Origin: Gracilimonas mengyeensis
Lineage (GTDB): Bacteria; Bacteroidota; Rhodothermia; Balneolales; Balneolaceae
Direction of reading: 5' to 3'
Length of the DNA: 64,000 bases
Assembly: GCF_900182705.1 (NCBI RefSeq)
Contig: NZ_FXTP01000002.1
Coordinates: 186,001 to 250,000, forward strand
Made by a program: the position numbers and the translations under genes. The notes under the pieces were generated by a model that did no database searches, had not been told where the DNA came from, and worked only from the letters and a program-made list of their open reading frames with translations. This document shows, in pieces, positions 58,440 through 64,000 of the stretch (the stretch's first letter is position 1; each line of letters begins with the position of its first letter).

Positions 58440-58590
58440 TTTTCCTCTCTTGGGAGGGGATTAAGGGGAGGGTTGATGTGGTAAAAGGCCTTTTGCCTTT
58501 TATAGACTACTCACTTCTTCAAAGAAAATCCCTCTTCGAAGAGGGTCCGGAAATGATCAAAGATCATTTACAGGGGGATGTGGGATGTTT
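58440..58590. repeat. CCTCTTGGGAGGGGATTAAGG / CCCTCTTCGAAGAGGG phrase block
   Basis: Contains TCTCTTGGGAGGGGATTAAG, AAAGGC-CTTTT-GCCTTT, the palindrome CCCTCTTCGAAGAGGG near 58529 and ATGATC-AAA-GATCAT. These small hairpins in a row precede the secreted nuclease gene; same phrase family as 40525 and 52943. Confidence 0.5.
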
Positions 58591-58623
58591 GATTTAGGCC
58601 ATCAATTTTAAAAAATATCATCT

Positions 58624-60132
58624 ATGAAAAAACTGTTACTTGTTATTCTTGGACTGTTTGTAGTCGTTCCCATTTCGGCACAATCCCAATCTGAGGAATC
58701 CTACACCTTAGTCAGCTACAACATCGAGAACCTCTTTGATGCGGATGGCATAGCGGTTTACGATGATTACCGTCCAGAGGATGAGGACGGCGATCCCCTG
58801 TACACTCCTGCAGATGTGCTTACCAAAATTGAGCATGCAATTCGGGTGTTAAAGCAGTATAACGAGGGTAAAGGGCCGGATATAGCAGCTATAGTTGAGC
58901 TGGAAAGTGATTTTACGCCGGGAGAGGAGCTTTCGCCTCAGGCATTCCTTAAAAAATACGAGGGGACTTCTTTGGAAAATATGCTAGGTGAGGGCTTTAA
59001 TGAGGAGATCGCCGATTTACCATCACATCTGTTGCTATTGAAAGGGATGATTGATTCGGATATGTGGGACTACCAGGTAGCTGTGGGCAAAAGCAAAATG
59101 AATGATCGGGGTGAACCGGAGAATGTGCAAAAGACGGTGATCTACAGCCGTTTTCCAATTCAAACCGAAAAAACCAAAGCACATCATTTGTATCGCGCTC
59201 GTCCTATTCTGGAAACCTGGATTGAAGTGAATGGAGAAGAGCTCGTAGTATTTAATAACCATTGGAAATCCGGTGCCAGCTCCTGGGAGATGGAACAAAT
59301 CCGCTTGCAGAATGCAGAGGTATTACGGGCTCGGTTGGATGAGCTTTTGGCCGAAAATCCGGATCAGGATATTGTGTTGGCTGGTGATTTTAACAGTGAT
59401 TACAACCAAAGTTATCGCTACGATTTTGAGAAAACGGCGGTCAATGATGTCTTGCGGTCTGTAGGAGATGAGGCGATGGTTGCGGAAGGTGGCGCGACGG
59501 CTGTCTACAACCTGTGGTATGAGTGGTCGATTGATCAGCGTGGTTCGGATGCTTACCGTGGGAAATGGGGCACCCTGATGCAATTGATGATTTCTTCGGG
59601 TATGTATGATGAAGAAAGTTTGCAGTACGTCGATAATTCCTTTTCTGTCGGTGATTTTGGCTTCAACACCCACAGCTCCTCTGGTGAGCCCAAACGCTGG
59701 AGTTCCACTTTTGACGGCAGCGGTTATTCGGATCACCTGCCGGTAAGCATGAAATTTCGTATAGCTGAAGGAAAGGCTGAGTACTCTAATTTCTCTCAAA
59801 ATGACGATGAACAGTGGCAGCCAATAGAGTTACAGTATTCTATCCCGGAAAGCTATTTCAGTGAAGAAGAATTCACCGCCAAAGATCCACGCACCAAGCC
59901 TGAATTTTTCAACGAATACGTGTATGCTACTGCAACAGTAACCGAGGATTATGATTTTGTAGTAGATGGTATCACCTATGATGTATACGCCCCATCATTC
60001 CGTTTAGAAAATGAGTTTGGAGAAGTAGCGGGAACCGGCCAAGAGATTCAGTTTTATGGCCGATTTTCACAATATCGCGGCACCTGGCAGTTTGTAGTAG
60101 AAAGCCCGGAATTTATTATCAGTGAGCAGTAA
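58624..60132 (+). CDS. Secreted endonuclease/exonuclease/phosphatase-family protein
   Basis: 502 residues with signal peptide KKLLLVILGLFVVVPISA. EEP motifs in order: LVSYNIENLFDADG with the Asn/Asp, IAAIVELESDF with the metal Glu, VVFNNHWKSGAS with a His, LAGDFNSDYNQ with catalytic Asp-Asn, and SGYSDHLPVSMKF with the final Asp-His. An extra C-terminal domain (about 380-500, strand-rich, DFVVDGITYDVYAPSFRLENEFG) resembles an OB-like module. It probably hydrolyses nucleic acids or phosphoesters outside the cytoplasm, as a phosphate scavenger. Confidence 0.87.
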   Translation: MKKLLLVILGLFVVVPISAQSQSEESYTLVSYNIENLFDADGIAVYDDYRPEDEDGDPLYTPADVLTKIEHAIRVLKQYNEGKGPDIAAIVELESDFTPGEELSPQAFLKKYEGTSLENMLGEGFNEEIADLPSHLLLLKGMIDSDMWDYQVAVGKSKMNDRGEPENVQKTVIYSRFPIQTEKTKAHHLYRARPILETWIEVNGEELVVFNNHWKSGASSWEMEQIRLQNAEVLRARLDELLAENPDQDIVLAGDFNSDYNQSYRYDFEKTAVNDVLRSVGDEAMVAEGGATAVYNLWYEWSIDQRGSDAYRGKWGTLMQLMISSGMYDEESLQYVDNSFSVGDFGFNTHSSSGEPKRWSSTFDGSGYSDHLPVSMKFRIAEGKAEYSNFSQNDDEQWQPIELQYSIPESYFSEEEFTAKDPRTKPEFFNEYVYATATVTEDYDFVVDGITYDVYAPSFRLENEFGEVAGTGQEIQFYGRFSQYRGTWQFVVESPEFIISEQ

Positions 60133-60201
60133 ACAGTTACCAGTGATCAGAGAACTCAGAACTCAGAACTCAGAATTTAAAATTCAACATTCAAAATTCC
60201 C

Positions 60202-60933
60202 ATGCTTCTTTCCCTCGAAACCTCCACCGATATCTGCTCCATTGCTTTTCAGGATAAAAGCGGGGAGATCTATGAGAAGCGGATGCAGCGAAAAGGCTCG
60301 CACTCGGAATATGTTTTTCTGTTTATCCGGGAGCTGATGGAGGAACATGATTTTAAGGTCGGGGATTTGGAAGCCGTATTAGTGAGTAACGGGCCCGGTT
60401 CTTACACCGGCCTCCGTATTGCAGCCAGTGCAGTGAAGGGACTACTATTTGGGACGGAAGTGAAAGTGTATGCCGGTAATACGCTGGCCGGGTTTGCATA
60501 TGATGTGGCAAAAAGCGGAAGTCACAAGCGGACGCTTGTGACAGGAGAGATCGAACTCGCAACCCGCAACCCGGAACCCGAAACTCAAAAAACTATCCAT
60601 GCCGTCATCAATGCGCGGCGAAAGCACCTGTATCACCAGCAGTTTTTATTTGATGGCGAACTGAAGGCTCAAACCAAATCGGATATTATCGAGTTGAGCG
60701 AAGTGGAGCAACAATTGGAATCCGGTCATTTTTTGGTGGGAACCGGGATCAATCGACTCACCGAAGAGTCCCGGGAAAAAGTACAAGAGTTTGGAATGGA
60801 TCATATCTCCGCCAAACCATTCATAGAACTCTTCAATACGGAAGGTGGAAAAGAGTTTTTCAGGAAAACCACGGCCGAAGAGTTGGAATCGAATTACATC
60901 AGCAGCTCTCAGGTGAATAATTCGAAGGTGTAG
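60202..60933 (+). CDS. tsaB: tRNA threonylcarbamoyladenosine biosynthesis protein TsaB
   Basis: 243 residues. MLLSLETSTDICSIAF, HSEYVFLFIRELM and VSNGPGSYTGLRIAASAVKGL match TsaB, the partner of TsaD in making t6A37 on tRNAs. Residues about 105-131 (SGSHKRTLVTGE, then IELATRNPEPETQKT) interrupt the region just before IHAVINARRKHLY, where most TsaB proteins have a short loop. The inserted DNA contains a nine-pair palindrome (60521-60542). The frame is kept, so the protein is probably functional. Upstream spacer consists of AACTCAG and AAATTC modules. Confidence 0.9.
   Translation: MLLSLETSTDICSIAFQDKSGEIYEKRMQRKGSHSEYVFLFIRELMEEHDFKVGDLEAVLVSNGPGSYTGLRIAASAVKGLLFGTEVKVYAGNTLAGFAYDVAKSGSHKRTLVTGEIELATRNPEPETQKTIHAVINARRKHLYHQQFLFDGELKAQTKSDIIELSEVEQQLESGHFLVGTGINRLTEESREKVQEFGMDHISAKPFIELFNTEGGKEFFRKTTAEELESNYISSSQVNNSKV
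60521..60542. repeat. Palindrome embedded in tsaB (GTCACAAGC stem, GGAC loop)
   Basis: GTCACAAGC and GCTTGTGAC form a perfect nine-pair stem around GGAC, inside the tsaB reading frame. Its AAGCGGACGCTTG core is repeated intergenically at 5592-5604. Confidence 0.75.
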
Positions 60934-60980
60934 CAGGGGATAAGTTGATAAGGGAATAGAATGGAGGTTGGGTGTTCCTA

Positions 60981-61082
60981 ACGCCGAATGGCGTATAAAT
61001 CATCATGTAAATGATGAAAATAGCTCCAGGTAACACCTGGAGAAACGATATGTCCCGATTAAACGAAACCCCGAACGGGGTT
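60981..61082. repeat. Left four-hairpin array of the transposase unit
   Basis: Four hairpins in 102 bases: ACGCC-GAAT-GGCGT (60981-60994), CATCAT-GTAA-ATGATG (61001-61016), CTCCAGGT-AAC-ACCTGGAG (61024-61042) and AACCCCG-AA-CGGGGTT (61067-61082). Linkers include AAAATAG between hairpins 2 and 3. The last hairpin ends 15 bases from the transposase stop codon. Confidence 0.85.
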
Positions 61083-61097
61083 CAACCAAAAGCCCCT

Positions 61098-61559
61098 TCA
61101 GTTATATTCCTTTTCAAATAAATATTCCTCTTTAAAATCAATCCCATAGGTCTTCAACAAATTCATGTACTCTTCTTTAAAAGCGATCTCCCGGTGGTGC
61201 TCTTTCTGATTGGCAATATATTTTGCCAATCTTTTTTTATCTGCAAGATTTTGAGTAAAAGCCGCATATCCAATCTGCCAACCCTTAAATTCCGGAAACC
61301 AATTATGTTCTTTGATGACCGACGAGCTACTTGTCTTTATATCTTTTATGTAATCAGCCAGGGCTATACTGGGATGTAGGCTGCTTAGAATATGGAGATG
61401 GTCTTCTACACCTCCAATTTTGTAAAGCGTACATTGCTTCTTTTTGATGAGTCCCCAGATGTATTGATAGAGCTTGCGTTGATTTTCTTCAGTGATGGCA
61501 GGGATTCTGTATTTCGTGCCGAATACAATGTGATAAATGATTTGCGTGTATGACCCCAT
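61098..61559 (-). CDS. REP-associated tyrosine transposase (IS200-like, Y1 HUH)
   Basis: 153 residues with the IS200-type Y1 transposase fold. YTQIIYHIVFGTKYR starts the family; the HUH motif is His54-Leu-His56 in GGVEDHLHIL; the nucleophile is probably Tyr114 in AKYIANQKEHH. There is no TnpB or accessory gene. The gene sits centrally between two inverted four-hairpin arrays (60981-61082 and 61574-61676), 14-15 bases from each, as in RAYT/REP units. Such enzymes cut single-stranded hairpin DNA at palindrome borders. All catalytic residues are present, so it is probably active. Confidence 0.88.
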   Translation of the reverse strand: MGSYTQIIYHIVFGTKYRIPAITEENQRKLYQYIWGLIKKKQCTLYKIGGVEDHLHILSSLHPSIALADYIKDIKTSSSSVIKEHNWFPEFKGWQIGYAAFTQNLADKKRLAKYIANQKEHHREIAFKEEYMNLLKTYGIDFKEEYLFEKEYN

Positions 61560-61891
61560 GATTTCGAATATTTAACCCCGTTCGGGGTTTGACTATTTCC
61601 CCTTATTTTTACCCTGAGCTTAGGCTCAGGGCTATTTCATTCTGTTACCAGAATGGTTAGACACCTTTCGGTGTCTACATCTTTAAAATATATTCCGTTT
61701 ACGGTTAATGTAACTGCCATATTAAAATATAAAAAGAGACAGTTTTCTTATGCACGCATTTTAGGGTTTAGTGAGAACATGAAGGAATATCAATCAACCC
61801 AAAATCCCCTTTAGTTTTTCCGTATTTTCATTCCTAAGTTCCACGTCTACTTTTTAGCAATCTATCAGCCAAAAACAGGTATATCGAGCGC
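61560..61891. other. Spacer between the transposase and mutS
   Basis: 332 bases. The first 117 hold the right hairpin array (listed separately). The rest is AT-rich and must contain the mutS promoter; a clear one is not seen. No Shine-Dalgarno sequence precedes the mutS ATG. Confidence 0.5.
61574..61676. repeat. Right four-hairpin array of the transposase unit (inverted)
   Basis: Hairpins AACCCCG-TT-CGGGGTT (61574-61589), CCCTGAGC-TTAG-GCTCAGGG (61612-61631), CATTCTG-TTAC-CAGAATG (61638-61655) and AGACACC-TTTC-GGTGTCT (61659-61676). Read in reverse complement, the order, loops (GAAA, GTAA, CTAA) and the AAATAGC linker parallel the left array, while three of four stems have other sequences. 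Confidence 0.85.
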
Positions 61892-64000
61892 ATGAGTGCC
61901 AAAAAAAAGCAAACTCCGCTGATGCGGCAGTACTTCAAGATTAAAGACGAACACCCGGGGACTATCTTGTTGTTTCGGGTGGGGGATTTTTACGAGACTT
62001 TTGCCGACGACGCCCAACTGATCAGTAAGGAACTGGGCATCACCCTTACCAAACGAAATAACGGGGGCGACCAAACCCCGCTGGCCGGATTTCCCTACCA
62101 CGCGCTGGATAATTACCTCCCCAAGCTGGTTAAAAAAGGGCACAAAGTAGCGGTTTGCGATCAAACCGAAGATCCCGAAGAAGCCAAGAAAGCCGGCCGT
62201 AAAATTGTGAAACGTGAGGTGACGGAAATCACCACACCCGGCGTGACGATGTCTGAAAAGCTGCTGGATCATAAACGTAATAATTACATTGCTTCCCTGC
62301 ATTGGGAGGGCAATACGGTTGGAGTAGCTTTTTCGGATATTTCGACCGGGGAATTTGCGCTGAGTCATGTGCATGAGGATAACCTGGACAGCCTGCTGGC
62401 GGCCATTCAGCCTTCGGAAATTTTGGTTCAGCAGAAAAAGAAAAACAAGCTGGATGAGTCGCTGACCCATCACAATATCTCTTACATCGAGGATTGGGTG
62501 TACGATGGTGATTACGGATATAATCTGCTCACCGATCATTTTGAAACGCATTCCCTGAAAGGATTTGGAGTGGAAGAGCTGGAGGTGGCTCACGTGGCAG
62601 CCGGTTCGCTGATGCATTACATGCAGGCGACGCAAAAAGCGTATTTGCGTCACCTGCGGCGCTTGTATGCTTATGAAAGCAATGAGTATATGAGCCTGGA
62701 TGCCTCCACCAAGCGCAACCTGGAGTTGGCGGCCAGCATTCAGGAAGGTGGGACGGAAGGTACCCTGATTTCAATCCTGGATGATACTTGCACGGCTATG
62801 GGAGGACGTCTGCTCCGCCGCTGGGTGATGCGCCCCCTGAAGCGACTCAAGCCAATACAGCAGCGACTGGATGCGGTGGAGAAACTATACGACGCCAACG
62901 ATATTCGGACGACCCTTCGGGATGAACTGGAGCAAATCGGCGATATGGAGCGGTTGATATCCCGCATTTGTGTGGGGCGAACGAACGCCCGGGATGTGGT
63001 TCAGCTAAAATTGTCGCTGGCACAGATTCCAAGGCTGAAAAGCCAGATTTCTTCTATAGATGATCCGCTGCTACAGGATATTTTGAAACGACTGAAACTG
63101 CTGATTGAAGTACAGGAACGTATAAATTCTGCGCTGCAGGATGATCCGCCGGCCAGTGTTCGCGACGGCGGTATGATTGAAGAAGGTTTTAACGACGAGT
63201 TGGATGAACTGCGTGATGTGGCCAAAAACGGTAAGAAATACATCGCCCAGATCAAAGATGAGCTGGCGCAGGAACACAATATCCCTTCGCTGAAAATCGG
63301 CTATAACAAGGTGTTTGGCTACTACATTGAAGTGACCAACACGCACAAAGATAAAGTTCCAGAAAGCTTCATCCGTAAGCAGACGCTGGTGAATTCCGAG
63401 CGGTACATCACCCCGGAATTGAAGGAGGTGGAAGAGAAGGTGCTGTCGGCAGAGGAGCGGAGTAAAACGCTGGAATATGAGCTGTTTGAAGAACTTCGAC
63501 TGTATGTGGCTGAGTTTGCCGAGGAGATTCAGCAGGTATCTCAGGCTATCGCTGAGTTGGATTGCCTGCAGGGCTTTGCCGAAGTGGCTTTCCGAAACAA
63601 TTACGCCAAGCCGGAAGTGGGCGATCATGAAGAAGTGGATATCAAAAAAGGACGACACCCGGTGGTGGAGAAATCGCTGCCTATGGGCGAGCCGTTTATT
63701 CCCAACGACATCAAGCTGAATAACGAAGATCAACAGATTCTGATTATTACCGGTCCCAATATGGCGGGTAAGAGTATCATCCTGCGCCAAACGGGACTGA
63801 TTGTGCTGTTGGCCCAAATCGGTAGTTTTGTGCCGGCTAAATCGGCAAATATTGGATTGGTGGATAAGATTTTTACCCGCGTGGGCGCTTCGGATAACCT
63901 GGCGGCCGGCGAAAGTACCTTTTTGGTGGAGATGAACGAAGCCGCCAACATCCTGAACAACGCTACTCCGCGTTCTTTGATTTTACTGGATGAAGTGGGG
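61892..64000 (+). CDS. mutS: DNA mismatch repair ATPase MutS (partial, 3' end outside window)
   Basis: 703 codons from the ATG at 61892, open to the window edge. The mismatch-reading motif is GDFYE with Phe33 and Glu35; domains I to IV follow in the usual order, with the clamp near IGYNKVFGYYIEVTNTHKD. The ATPase has Walker A GPNMAGKSIILRQ (about 621) and the sequence stops within Walker B (LILLDEVG). This is a full MutS1, not MutS2. It recognises mismatches and recruits MutL. Confidence 0.96.
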   Translation, partial: MSAKKKQTPLMRQYFKIKDEHPGTILLFRVGDFYETFADDAQLISKELGITLTKRNNGGDQTPLAGFPYHALDNYLPKLVKKGHKVAVCDQTEDPEEAKKAGRKIVKREVTEITTPGVTMSEKLLDHKRNNYIASLHWEGNTVGVAFSDISTGEFALSHVHEDNLDSLLAAIQPSEILVQQKKKNKLDESLTHHNISYIEDWVYDGDYGYNLLTDHFETHSLKGFGVEELEVAHVAAGSLMHYMQATQKAYLRHLRRLYAYESNEYMSLDASTKRNLELAASIQEGGTEGTLISILDDTCTAMGGRLLRRWVMRPLKRLKPIQQRLDAVEKLYDANDIRTTLRDELEQIGDMERLISRICVGRTNARDVVQLKLSLAQIPRLKSQISSIDDPLLQDILKRLKLLIEVQERINSALQDDPPASVRDGGMIEEGFNDELDELRDVAKNGKKYIAQIKDELAQEHNIPSLKIGYNKVFGYYIEVTNTHKDKVPESFIRKQTLVNSERYITPELKEVEEKVLSAEERSKTLEYELFEELRLYVAEFAEEIQQVSQAIAELDCLQGFAEVAFRNNYAKPEVGDHEEVDIKKGRHPVVEKSLPMGEPFIPNDIKLNNEDQQILIITGPNMAGKSIILRQTGLIVLLAQIGSFVPAKSANIGLVDKIFTRVGASDNLAAGESTFLVEMNEAANILNNATPRSLILLDEVG

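Follow-up and report, generated by a model that had tools for sequence, protein, structure and literature searches.

Inward-facing multi-hairpin arrays around a Y1 transposase gene of Gracilimonas mengyeensis, their recurrence at homologous genes and their dispersal as gene-less units

The 64,000-nt stretch of the Gracilimonas mengyeensis genome analysed here (the window; contig NZ_FXTP01000002.1, positions 186,001 to 250,000) carries, between a TsaD-family gene, which we take to be tsaB-like, and mutS, a gene for a 153-residue Y1 (HUH) transposase (61098-61559, minus strand; Pfam PF01797, E 5.2e-23) with the motifs DHLH, GWQ and YIANQKEHH; an endonuclease/phosphatase-family protein was also among the neighbours tested. 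The gene is enclosed by two inverted four-hairpin arrays, both facing it, at 60981-61082 (left, 102 nt) and 61574-61676 (right, 103 nt), which stop 15 and 14 nt from the reading frame, respectively, as an initial annotation of this DNA had described. Read inwards on the plus strand, the left array consists of hairpin 1 (ACGCC-GAAT-GGCGT, 60981-60994), hairpin 2 (TCATCAT-GTAA-ATGATGA, 61000-61017), an ATAG tag (61020-61023) at the 5' foot of hairpin 3 (CTCCAGGT-AAC-ACCTGGAG, 61024-61042), and hairpin 4 (AACCCC-GAAC-GGGGTT, 61067-61082). The right array repeats this layout on the minus strand, with hairpin 1 (AGACACC-GAAA-GGTGTCT, 61659-61676), hairpin 2 (CATTCTG-GTAA-CAGAATG, 61638-61655), the ATAG tag (61632-61635) at the 5' foot of hairpin 3 (CCCTGAGC-CTAA-GCTCAGGG, 61612-61631), and hairpin 4 (AACCCC-GAAC-GGGGTT, 61574-61589). 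Hairpins 2 and 4 were delimited by sequence and folding (right hairpin 2 also by its copies), hairpins 1 and 3 by folding and comparison of copies, and the tags, candidate guides by analogy with the GTAG of REP sequences, by comparison with homologous units, where ATAG or ATAA and sometimes GTAG is found. The loops, the AAATAGC linker and hairpin 4 are common to both arrays, again in agreement with the annotation, and the arrays are self-complementary: when folded as DNA, both arrays form all four hairpins on either strand (four folds), with z-scores of -5.98 to -8.33 against dinucleotide shuffles, none of the 200 shuffles per fold being as good. The further statement that the stems of the two arrays differ completely is too strong for hairpin 1, where ACGCC and (AG)ACACC are separated by one compensated pair and a 2-bp extension; one right-type copy elsewhere in the genome carries GACGCC on the 5' arm of this hairpin. 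Since the homology of the copies stops at the outer foot of hairpin 1 on both sides (three left copies, five right copies), 60981-61676 looks like the entire element.

The enzyme had been called RAYT-like. This is not right, since its tyrosine motif, YIANQKEHH, is that of class 1 and not the class 2 motif Y---NP, and since its best match in the PDB is the ISHp608 transposase. Six distinct PDB sequences were matched at E <= 0.001, the others being named "transposase"; some of these are presumably ISDra2. As judged from its Y---Q--HH signature, the enzyme is of the TnpA subclass 1.2 type, within the IS200 clade. The pattern is present in 34 of 36 genes at least 45% identical to the window protein and in 32 of 39 genes below 45%. 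The HUH motif of the window protein, DHLH, has L for the I or V of the subclass 1.2 motif DH[IV]H, and among the homologues it is mainly DHIH, DHVH or DHLH. With the subclass as defined by Quentin et al. 2018 (PMC6006769) the window protein shares Y---Q--HH, a W-Q motif (here GWQ), short length and low copy number: the genome has one intact copy, and the next match is only 36% identical. In the flanks of this second Y1 gene (L002, G000:C9:129222-129626), CATAG + hairpin units with other stems are seen by eye.

Homologous genes were gathered by protein alone, giving 53 loci together with matches in 30 of 57 related genomes, of which those given as loci were examined. From these 84 gene loci (L001-L055, L086-L114) nine with a match below 118 residues (L032, L033, L035, L043, L053, L054, L055, L098, L107) were dropped, leaving 36 genes at 45% identity or more, the window included, and 39 below; close relatives among them (L018/L020, L089/L090, L087/L088 and four Belliella loci) are not independent. 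In the 350-nt flanks we sought a unit made of hairpin 2, up to 14 nt, ATAG, ATAA or GTAG, hairpin 3 at the foot of the tag, 8-60 nt and hairpin 4, with Watson-Crick stems and one mismatch allowed in hairpin 3. A first descriptor, with stricter stems and with ATAG or GTAG as the only tags, gave too low a count, since ATAA and stems with one mismatch also occur among the homologues; it was loosened after misses had been seen and rerun with new shuffles. An inward-facing unit lies upstream of 30 of the 36 close genes, downstream of 28, on both sides of 25 and on at least one side of 33, the exceptions being L005, L086 and L007; outward units occur in 6 of 72 flanks, and shuffled flanks yield 18 matches in 1440. 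Below 45% identity the counts fall to 7/39 upstream, 5/39 downstream and 3/39 on both sides (shuffles 22/1560), and several of the one-sided matches look like chance. A motif-free count of flanks with at least two hairpins within 200 nt gives 58/72 near flanks, 2/58 far flanks and 8/720 shuffles for the close group, and 33/78, 2/71 and 14/780 for the distant group. By record names, the array-bearing loci belong to Bacteroidetes, Verrucomicrobia, Limisphaerales, Phycisphaerae, Lentisphaerae, Zixibacteriota and Electryonea. Their tag is mostly ATAG or ATAA and in a few cases GTAG (e.g. L006, L009, L022). Some flanks are more elaborate: units stand in tandem upstream of L028 and L015, two adjoining units of L015 sharing a hairpin that is hairpin 4 for one and hairpin 2 for the other, and the downstream arrays of L020 and L018 differ by a 26-nt insertion in hairpin 2 of one locus, which makes a longer nested hairpin.

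These arrays are at odds with the published account of the subclass. Quentin et al. 2018 (PMC6006769) described subclass 1.2 as being without REP and generally without the terminal secondary structure of IS200, and as occurring mostly in Cyanobacteria and Bacteroidetes, whereas here arrays stand at nearly all close genes, including, by record names, genes of Verrucomicrobia, Phycisphaerae, Zixibacteriota and others. Because the subclass is defined by sequence, we take the arrays as a correction of the 2018 description. A REP-type system is in itself known; the enzyme partner is what was not expected, the subclass-defining paper (PMC6006769) saying the opposite. A literature search by titles and abstract openings, with most subscription journals and preprints outside its scope, recovered no recognisable description of arrays at subclass 1.2 genes, which is not proof of their absence from the literature.

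Across homologues, and also between the two ends of one element, the stems differ with compensation while the structure, the loops and the ATAG-type linker persist, as the initial annotation had proposed from the window. Among the 28 loci in which both arrays were found, 20 have different hairpin 3 arms on the left and on the right (in L010 by an uncompensated change), and the window is thus a marked case of a common pattern. In an alignment of 35 units 94.8% of cells are paired, 17 of 21 pairs have changed on both sides, and 135 cells are changed on both sides as opposed to 12 on one side only; a covariation score of 0.526 compares with 0.189 for shuffles and at most 0.093 for slid versions, and G-U pairs make up 19 of about 695 paired cells. 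Pairing, compensation and low G-U content are partly built into this count, the last of them largely, since the descriptor demands Watson-Crick arms. The 35 were moreover chosen from 49 units, longer-loop units having been left out earlier; those dropped for an odd hairpin 2, as duplicates or for a long loop were seven of clade B, two of L028, and one each at L003 (upstream), L008 (downstream), L017 (downstream), L020 (upstream) and L087 (downstream). A second count, in the window's genome, used 46 model matches (38 distinct) from 27 loci with G-U allowed, the covariance model having been trained on the first set: 91.0% of cells are paired, and among the 38 distinct units 19 of 21 pairs have changed on both sides, with 101 double against 14 one-sided cells, 14 G-U cells and a score of 0.340 against 0.119. 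The more independent support for the arrays comes from the flank counts, by descriptor and motif-free, and from the ortholog comparisons below, not from the 35-unit count; the scarcity of G-U leans towards a structure in DNA but is not decisive.

Stems are not free within a family. All three left copies of the window's family keep the hairpin 3 stem CTCCAGGT, and the five right copies all share the 5' arm CCCTGAGC, the 3' arm of one of them having decayed. Hairpin 3 stems are thus fixed per end, which contradicts the freely drifting stems suggested by the initial annotation. Across families, hairpin 3 tends to CC...GGT/ACC...GG: its foot keeps CC, and its top is usually GGT. Hairpin 4 tends to AACCC/GGGTT, keeping AACCC or GACCC. 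Loops of the GNA, GNNA and GNAB types have unusual stability in DNA. On the tag strand, as raw rates with no background, loops with G first and A last (GNA, GNNA, GNAB or wobble-closed GNA) close hairpin 2 in 55 of 65 units, hairpin 3 in 32 (with loops of other sizes in 18) and, counting wobble-closed loops, hairpin 4 in 39.

The initial annotation had proposed searching the genome with a covariance model for further arrays. Such a search (E <= 0.1, 4.67 Mb, 33 contigs, 150 of 1110 candidates scored) found 69 matches including the two of the window, so that 67 lie away from the gene, and most stand without any gene. Among neighbouring matches at most 160 nt apart, 14 of 15 are head-to-head, as at the gene, and one is tail-to-tail; at 160-600 nt five of six share the same orientation, the one head-to-head case being the window's own pair. 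Two copies are gutted: C2:476074-476345 keeps both arrays and a still readable start of the reading frame, and C15:64933-65214 keeps both arrays. Other families share the genome with that of the window and have the same tag and layout with other stems. In its own right, we note that the genome holds 21 exact matches to a pattern in which CTCCGCC and CGGAGGTTGG are separated by some 28 or 29 variable bases (e.g. G000:C4:154331-154375 and G000:C1:147562-147606, both on the plus strand), against none for a reversed-pattern control; those inspected in context lie directly 3' of an H2-ATAG-H3 unit, with a loop of near-constant length and very variable sequence.

Dispersed units accompany the gene in other genomes too. 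Among 57 genomes, the window's included, units occur in all seven with a close gene (2 to 56 each) and in 15 of the 50 without (Fisher p 6e-4), the relatives having been counted under stricter filters that may miss weak units. Genomes with units and without a close gene include G042 (40 units), G047 (22), G002 (20), G026 (18, with gene fragments) and G039 (9, with no Y1 match); such exceptions make the link between enzyme and unit strong, not exclusive. In the genomes of other homologous loci, units were found in 10 of 10 (4 to 81 each at E <= 1e-4). As for insertion, inspection by eye of the flanks of three complete copies showed no target duplication. Nine other genomes of the genus (L209-L217), compared by eye with window positions 60933-61892, carry different sequence upstream of mutS, so that there is no clean empty-site comparison at this locus; a search of the same nine genomes for the flanks of the gutted copy at C2:476074 returned only a short repeat of about 60-80 nt. 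When six loci of G057 were placed in G058, the flanks of L264, L270, L271 and L281 fell on one contig on both sides and those of L263 and L267 on one side; a model search of the four G058 stretches gave no unit. Only L271/L314 is a clean gap, and as the removed piece is a compound of two repeats, it tells presence from absence and not which repeat has moved; a clean insertion site of a lone unit was thus not seen. Throughout L263-L290 (G057, G058) many units are embedded in a different palindromic repeat (CCGGTCGGTG-NNN-CACC...), which in turn belongs to a larger repeat, in a nested arrangement.

How the arms remain complementary is suggested by orthologous loci. At the transposase-gene locus of G057 and G058 (92 to 96% identity in aligned stretches, 98% in the flanks of this locus) one hairpin 4 loop is GCAA in one genome and TTGC in the other, and one hairpin 3 loop is AAC and GTT; a second orthologous pair has GGA/TCC and GTA/TAC. 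The differing loops are exact reverse complements, and the hairpin has therefore been turned around. In the aligned stretches, 4 of 11 hairpins classed by the descriptor as array are inverted, against 1 of 35 others (p 0.009), or 4 of 9 if two that look like chance descriptor matches (35104, 35035) are set aside; with stems of at least 7 bp only, the counts are 3/7 and 1/14 (p 0.09), 21 of the 35 others having 6-bp stems. The hairpins are few, and those within one locus are not independent. The sole inverted outsider has a stem of 15 bp that carries a compensated change, and it argues for a process of the host instead of the enzyme. Among dispersed copies (34 loci, some orthologous), loops occur with their reverse complements as AAA 17/TTT 6, GTA 11/TAC 9, GGA 7/TCC 4 and GAA 16/TTC 1; no partner of the GCA loop (n=6) was found among them. 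Hairpin 3B is inverted in none of 20 matched cases, by a pattern that misses the L261 copy, which is inverted relative to L292; counts for the outer GGTG-NNN-CACC were not used because orientation is undefined there.

Loop inversion together with multiple compensated changes is described as the footprint of template switching during replication (PMC8794818). The compensated stem changes and inverted loops seen here are like those of this 2022 work, which, in the part considered here, concerns RNA genes in which loop inversions are rare, in contrast to the DNA repeats and the frequency of inversion above. Template switching is the likely way in which the arms stay complementary. The initial annotation had raised two routes for the stems, mutation with repair through the opposite strand and exchange. 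The former is borne out in part, in that the loop inversions between orthologous loci fit template switching; the latter finds an example in one orthologous pair, L021/L022, in which the whole stem of hairpin 2 has been swapped.

Comparison with known systems places the arrays close to REP sequences. As in the REPtron (TnpAREP/RAYT, class 2), palindromic units flank the gene, are dispersed, and have a tetranucleotide at the 5' foot of a hairpin; unlike there, the enzyme is of class 1, the tag is mostly ATAG or ATAA (ATAG in the window) and not GTAG/GTGG (GT[AG]G), and three or four hairpins make up the unit, where a REP has one. Cutting by TnpAREP is reported to be strand-specific and to depend, to an extent that varies with the system, on the GTAG tag at the hairpin foot and on bases of the loop or bulge, with the stem contributing only in part; across the three systems of that report, stem changes were tolerated to varying degrees, and the tag, and in two of them the loop, mattered (PMC8266576). 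The Stenotrophomonas maltophilia REP is given there as an 8-bp palindrome with a 3-nt loop whose G is crucial, and cutting suffered severely when this loop was exchanged for its reverse complement (PMC8266576). Hairpin 3, with ATAG or ATAA at its foot, much resembles this substrate. REPINs, for their part, are described as miniature inverted doublets thought to exploit the RAYT transposase in trans (Bertels and Rainey 2011, PMC3116915), and the inverted doublets scattered in the window's genome are alike in this respect. REPIN ends are however predicted to pair into one long hairpin (PMC3116915), whereas here the outer hairpins fold locally: one gutted copy, when folded, forms local outer hairpins on both sides because its left and right stems differ, and in the centroid structure pairing between the two sides is confined to the hairpin 4 region. 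This favours a REPIN-like system in which units of several hairpins fold locally and are served by an enzyme of the IS200 clade.

We consider it probable that the element belongs to a single-strand DNA system of REPIN/BIME-like kind whose enzyme is of the IS200 clade (TnpA subclass 1.2) and not a RAYT. Each array would be one recognition unit. In it, hairpin 2 is followed by a short linker that closes with the ATAG or ATAA tag; hairpin 3, whose foot touches the tag, has a stem of about 8 bp and in many cases a loop of 3-4 nt, and some 20 nt separate it from hairpin 4. The window's family has an outer hairpin 1 in addition. Two such units face each other across the gene, and copies lacking an intact gene are scattered as single units and head-to-head pairs. 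On an exposed single strand, for instance the lagging-strand template, the unit would fold, the Y1 enzyme would dock on hairpin 3 and its loop with the tag as guide, as GTAG is for TnpAREP, and cutting and rejoining near the unit would let units spread in trans. Left and right units would descend separately, and template switching would copy one arm onto the other, inverting loops as well; the arms would thus stay complementary for two reasons, the need for the folded form and the copying of one arm onto the other.

The same locus could be read as an ordinary IS200/IS605 insertion sequence that moves by one-strand peel-and-paste between subterminal hairpins. The Y1 domain with its Y---Q signature, the closeness to the ISHp608 transposase among solved structures, the sharp element ends and the gutted copies would all suit it. 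IS200-type left and right ends are, however, read on one strand, while the present arrays are inverted with their tags on opposite strands; there is one intact copy and not several near-identical full copies per genome, no tnpB-like open reading frame is seen by eye (frames of at least 60 residues, 58500-64000), and most model matches lack a gene, all of which makes this reading unlikely. Less likely still is that the hairpins act in RNA, as terminators or as mRNA-stabilising structures shielding the transposase or neighbouring genes in the manner proposed for some REPs: GC-rich hairpins 14-15 nt from both gene ends and stable folds on both strands (by DNA parameters only) are compatible with such a role, but G-U pairs are few in both counts, although largely by construction in the first, a conserved single-stranded tag on one strand, dispersed gene-less units and inward orientation would not be expected of terminators, and Rfam gave no match in the window at gathering thresholds.

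There is a somewhat better, if still doubtful, case for the reading of the initial annotation, in which structure, loops and linkers are all that the enzyme reads and the stems are free to drift. Stems do differ between families and between ends with compensation, and the varying tolerance of stem changes among three TnpAREP systems, where the tag and in two of them the loop mattered (PMC8266576), points the same way. Against it stand the fixation of stems per end in the window's family, the CC kept at the foot of hairpin 3 and the ACCC kept in hairpin 4 across families, and the presence of several families in one genome, which suggests some specificity. A more far-reaching proposal, to which we give little weight, would make subclass 1.2 a separate single-strand mobile system, in which a fixed series of three or four hairpins acts as one unit and left and right units form lineages of their own. 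Single hairpins would often be inverted by template switching, which would at once repair the arms and switch a unit between a form that can be cut and one that cannot, the orientation of the loop telling the enzyme which strand to use.

On the preferred reading, a REPIN/BIME-like system run by an IS200-clade enzyme, subclass 1.2, described without a DNA partner by its defining paper (PMC6006769), gains a clear candidate substrate in several phyla, and the combination of an IS200-clade enzyme with REP-like inverted, dispersed units would link IS200 insertion sequences to REP systems. Arrays that keep tag and loops while their stems vary are natural experiments on what such enzymes read, and comparing loop inversions between related genomes offers a direct measure of template switching at DNA hairpins.
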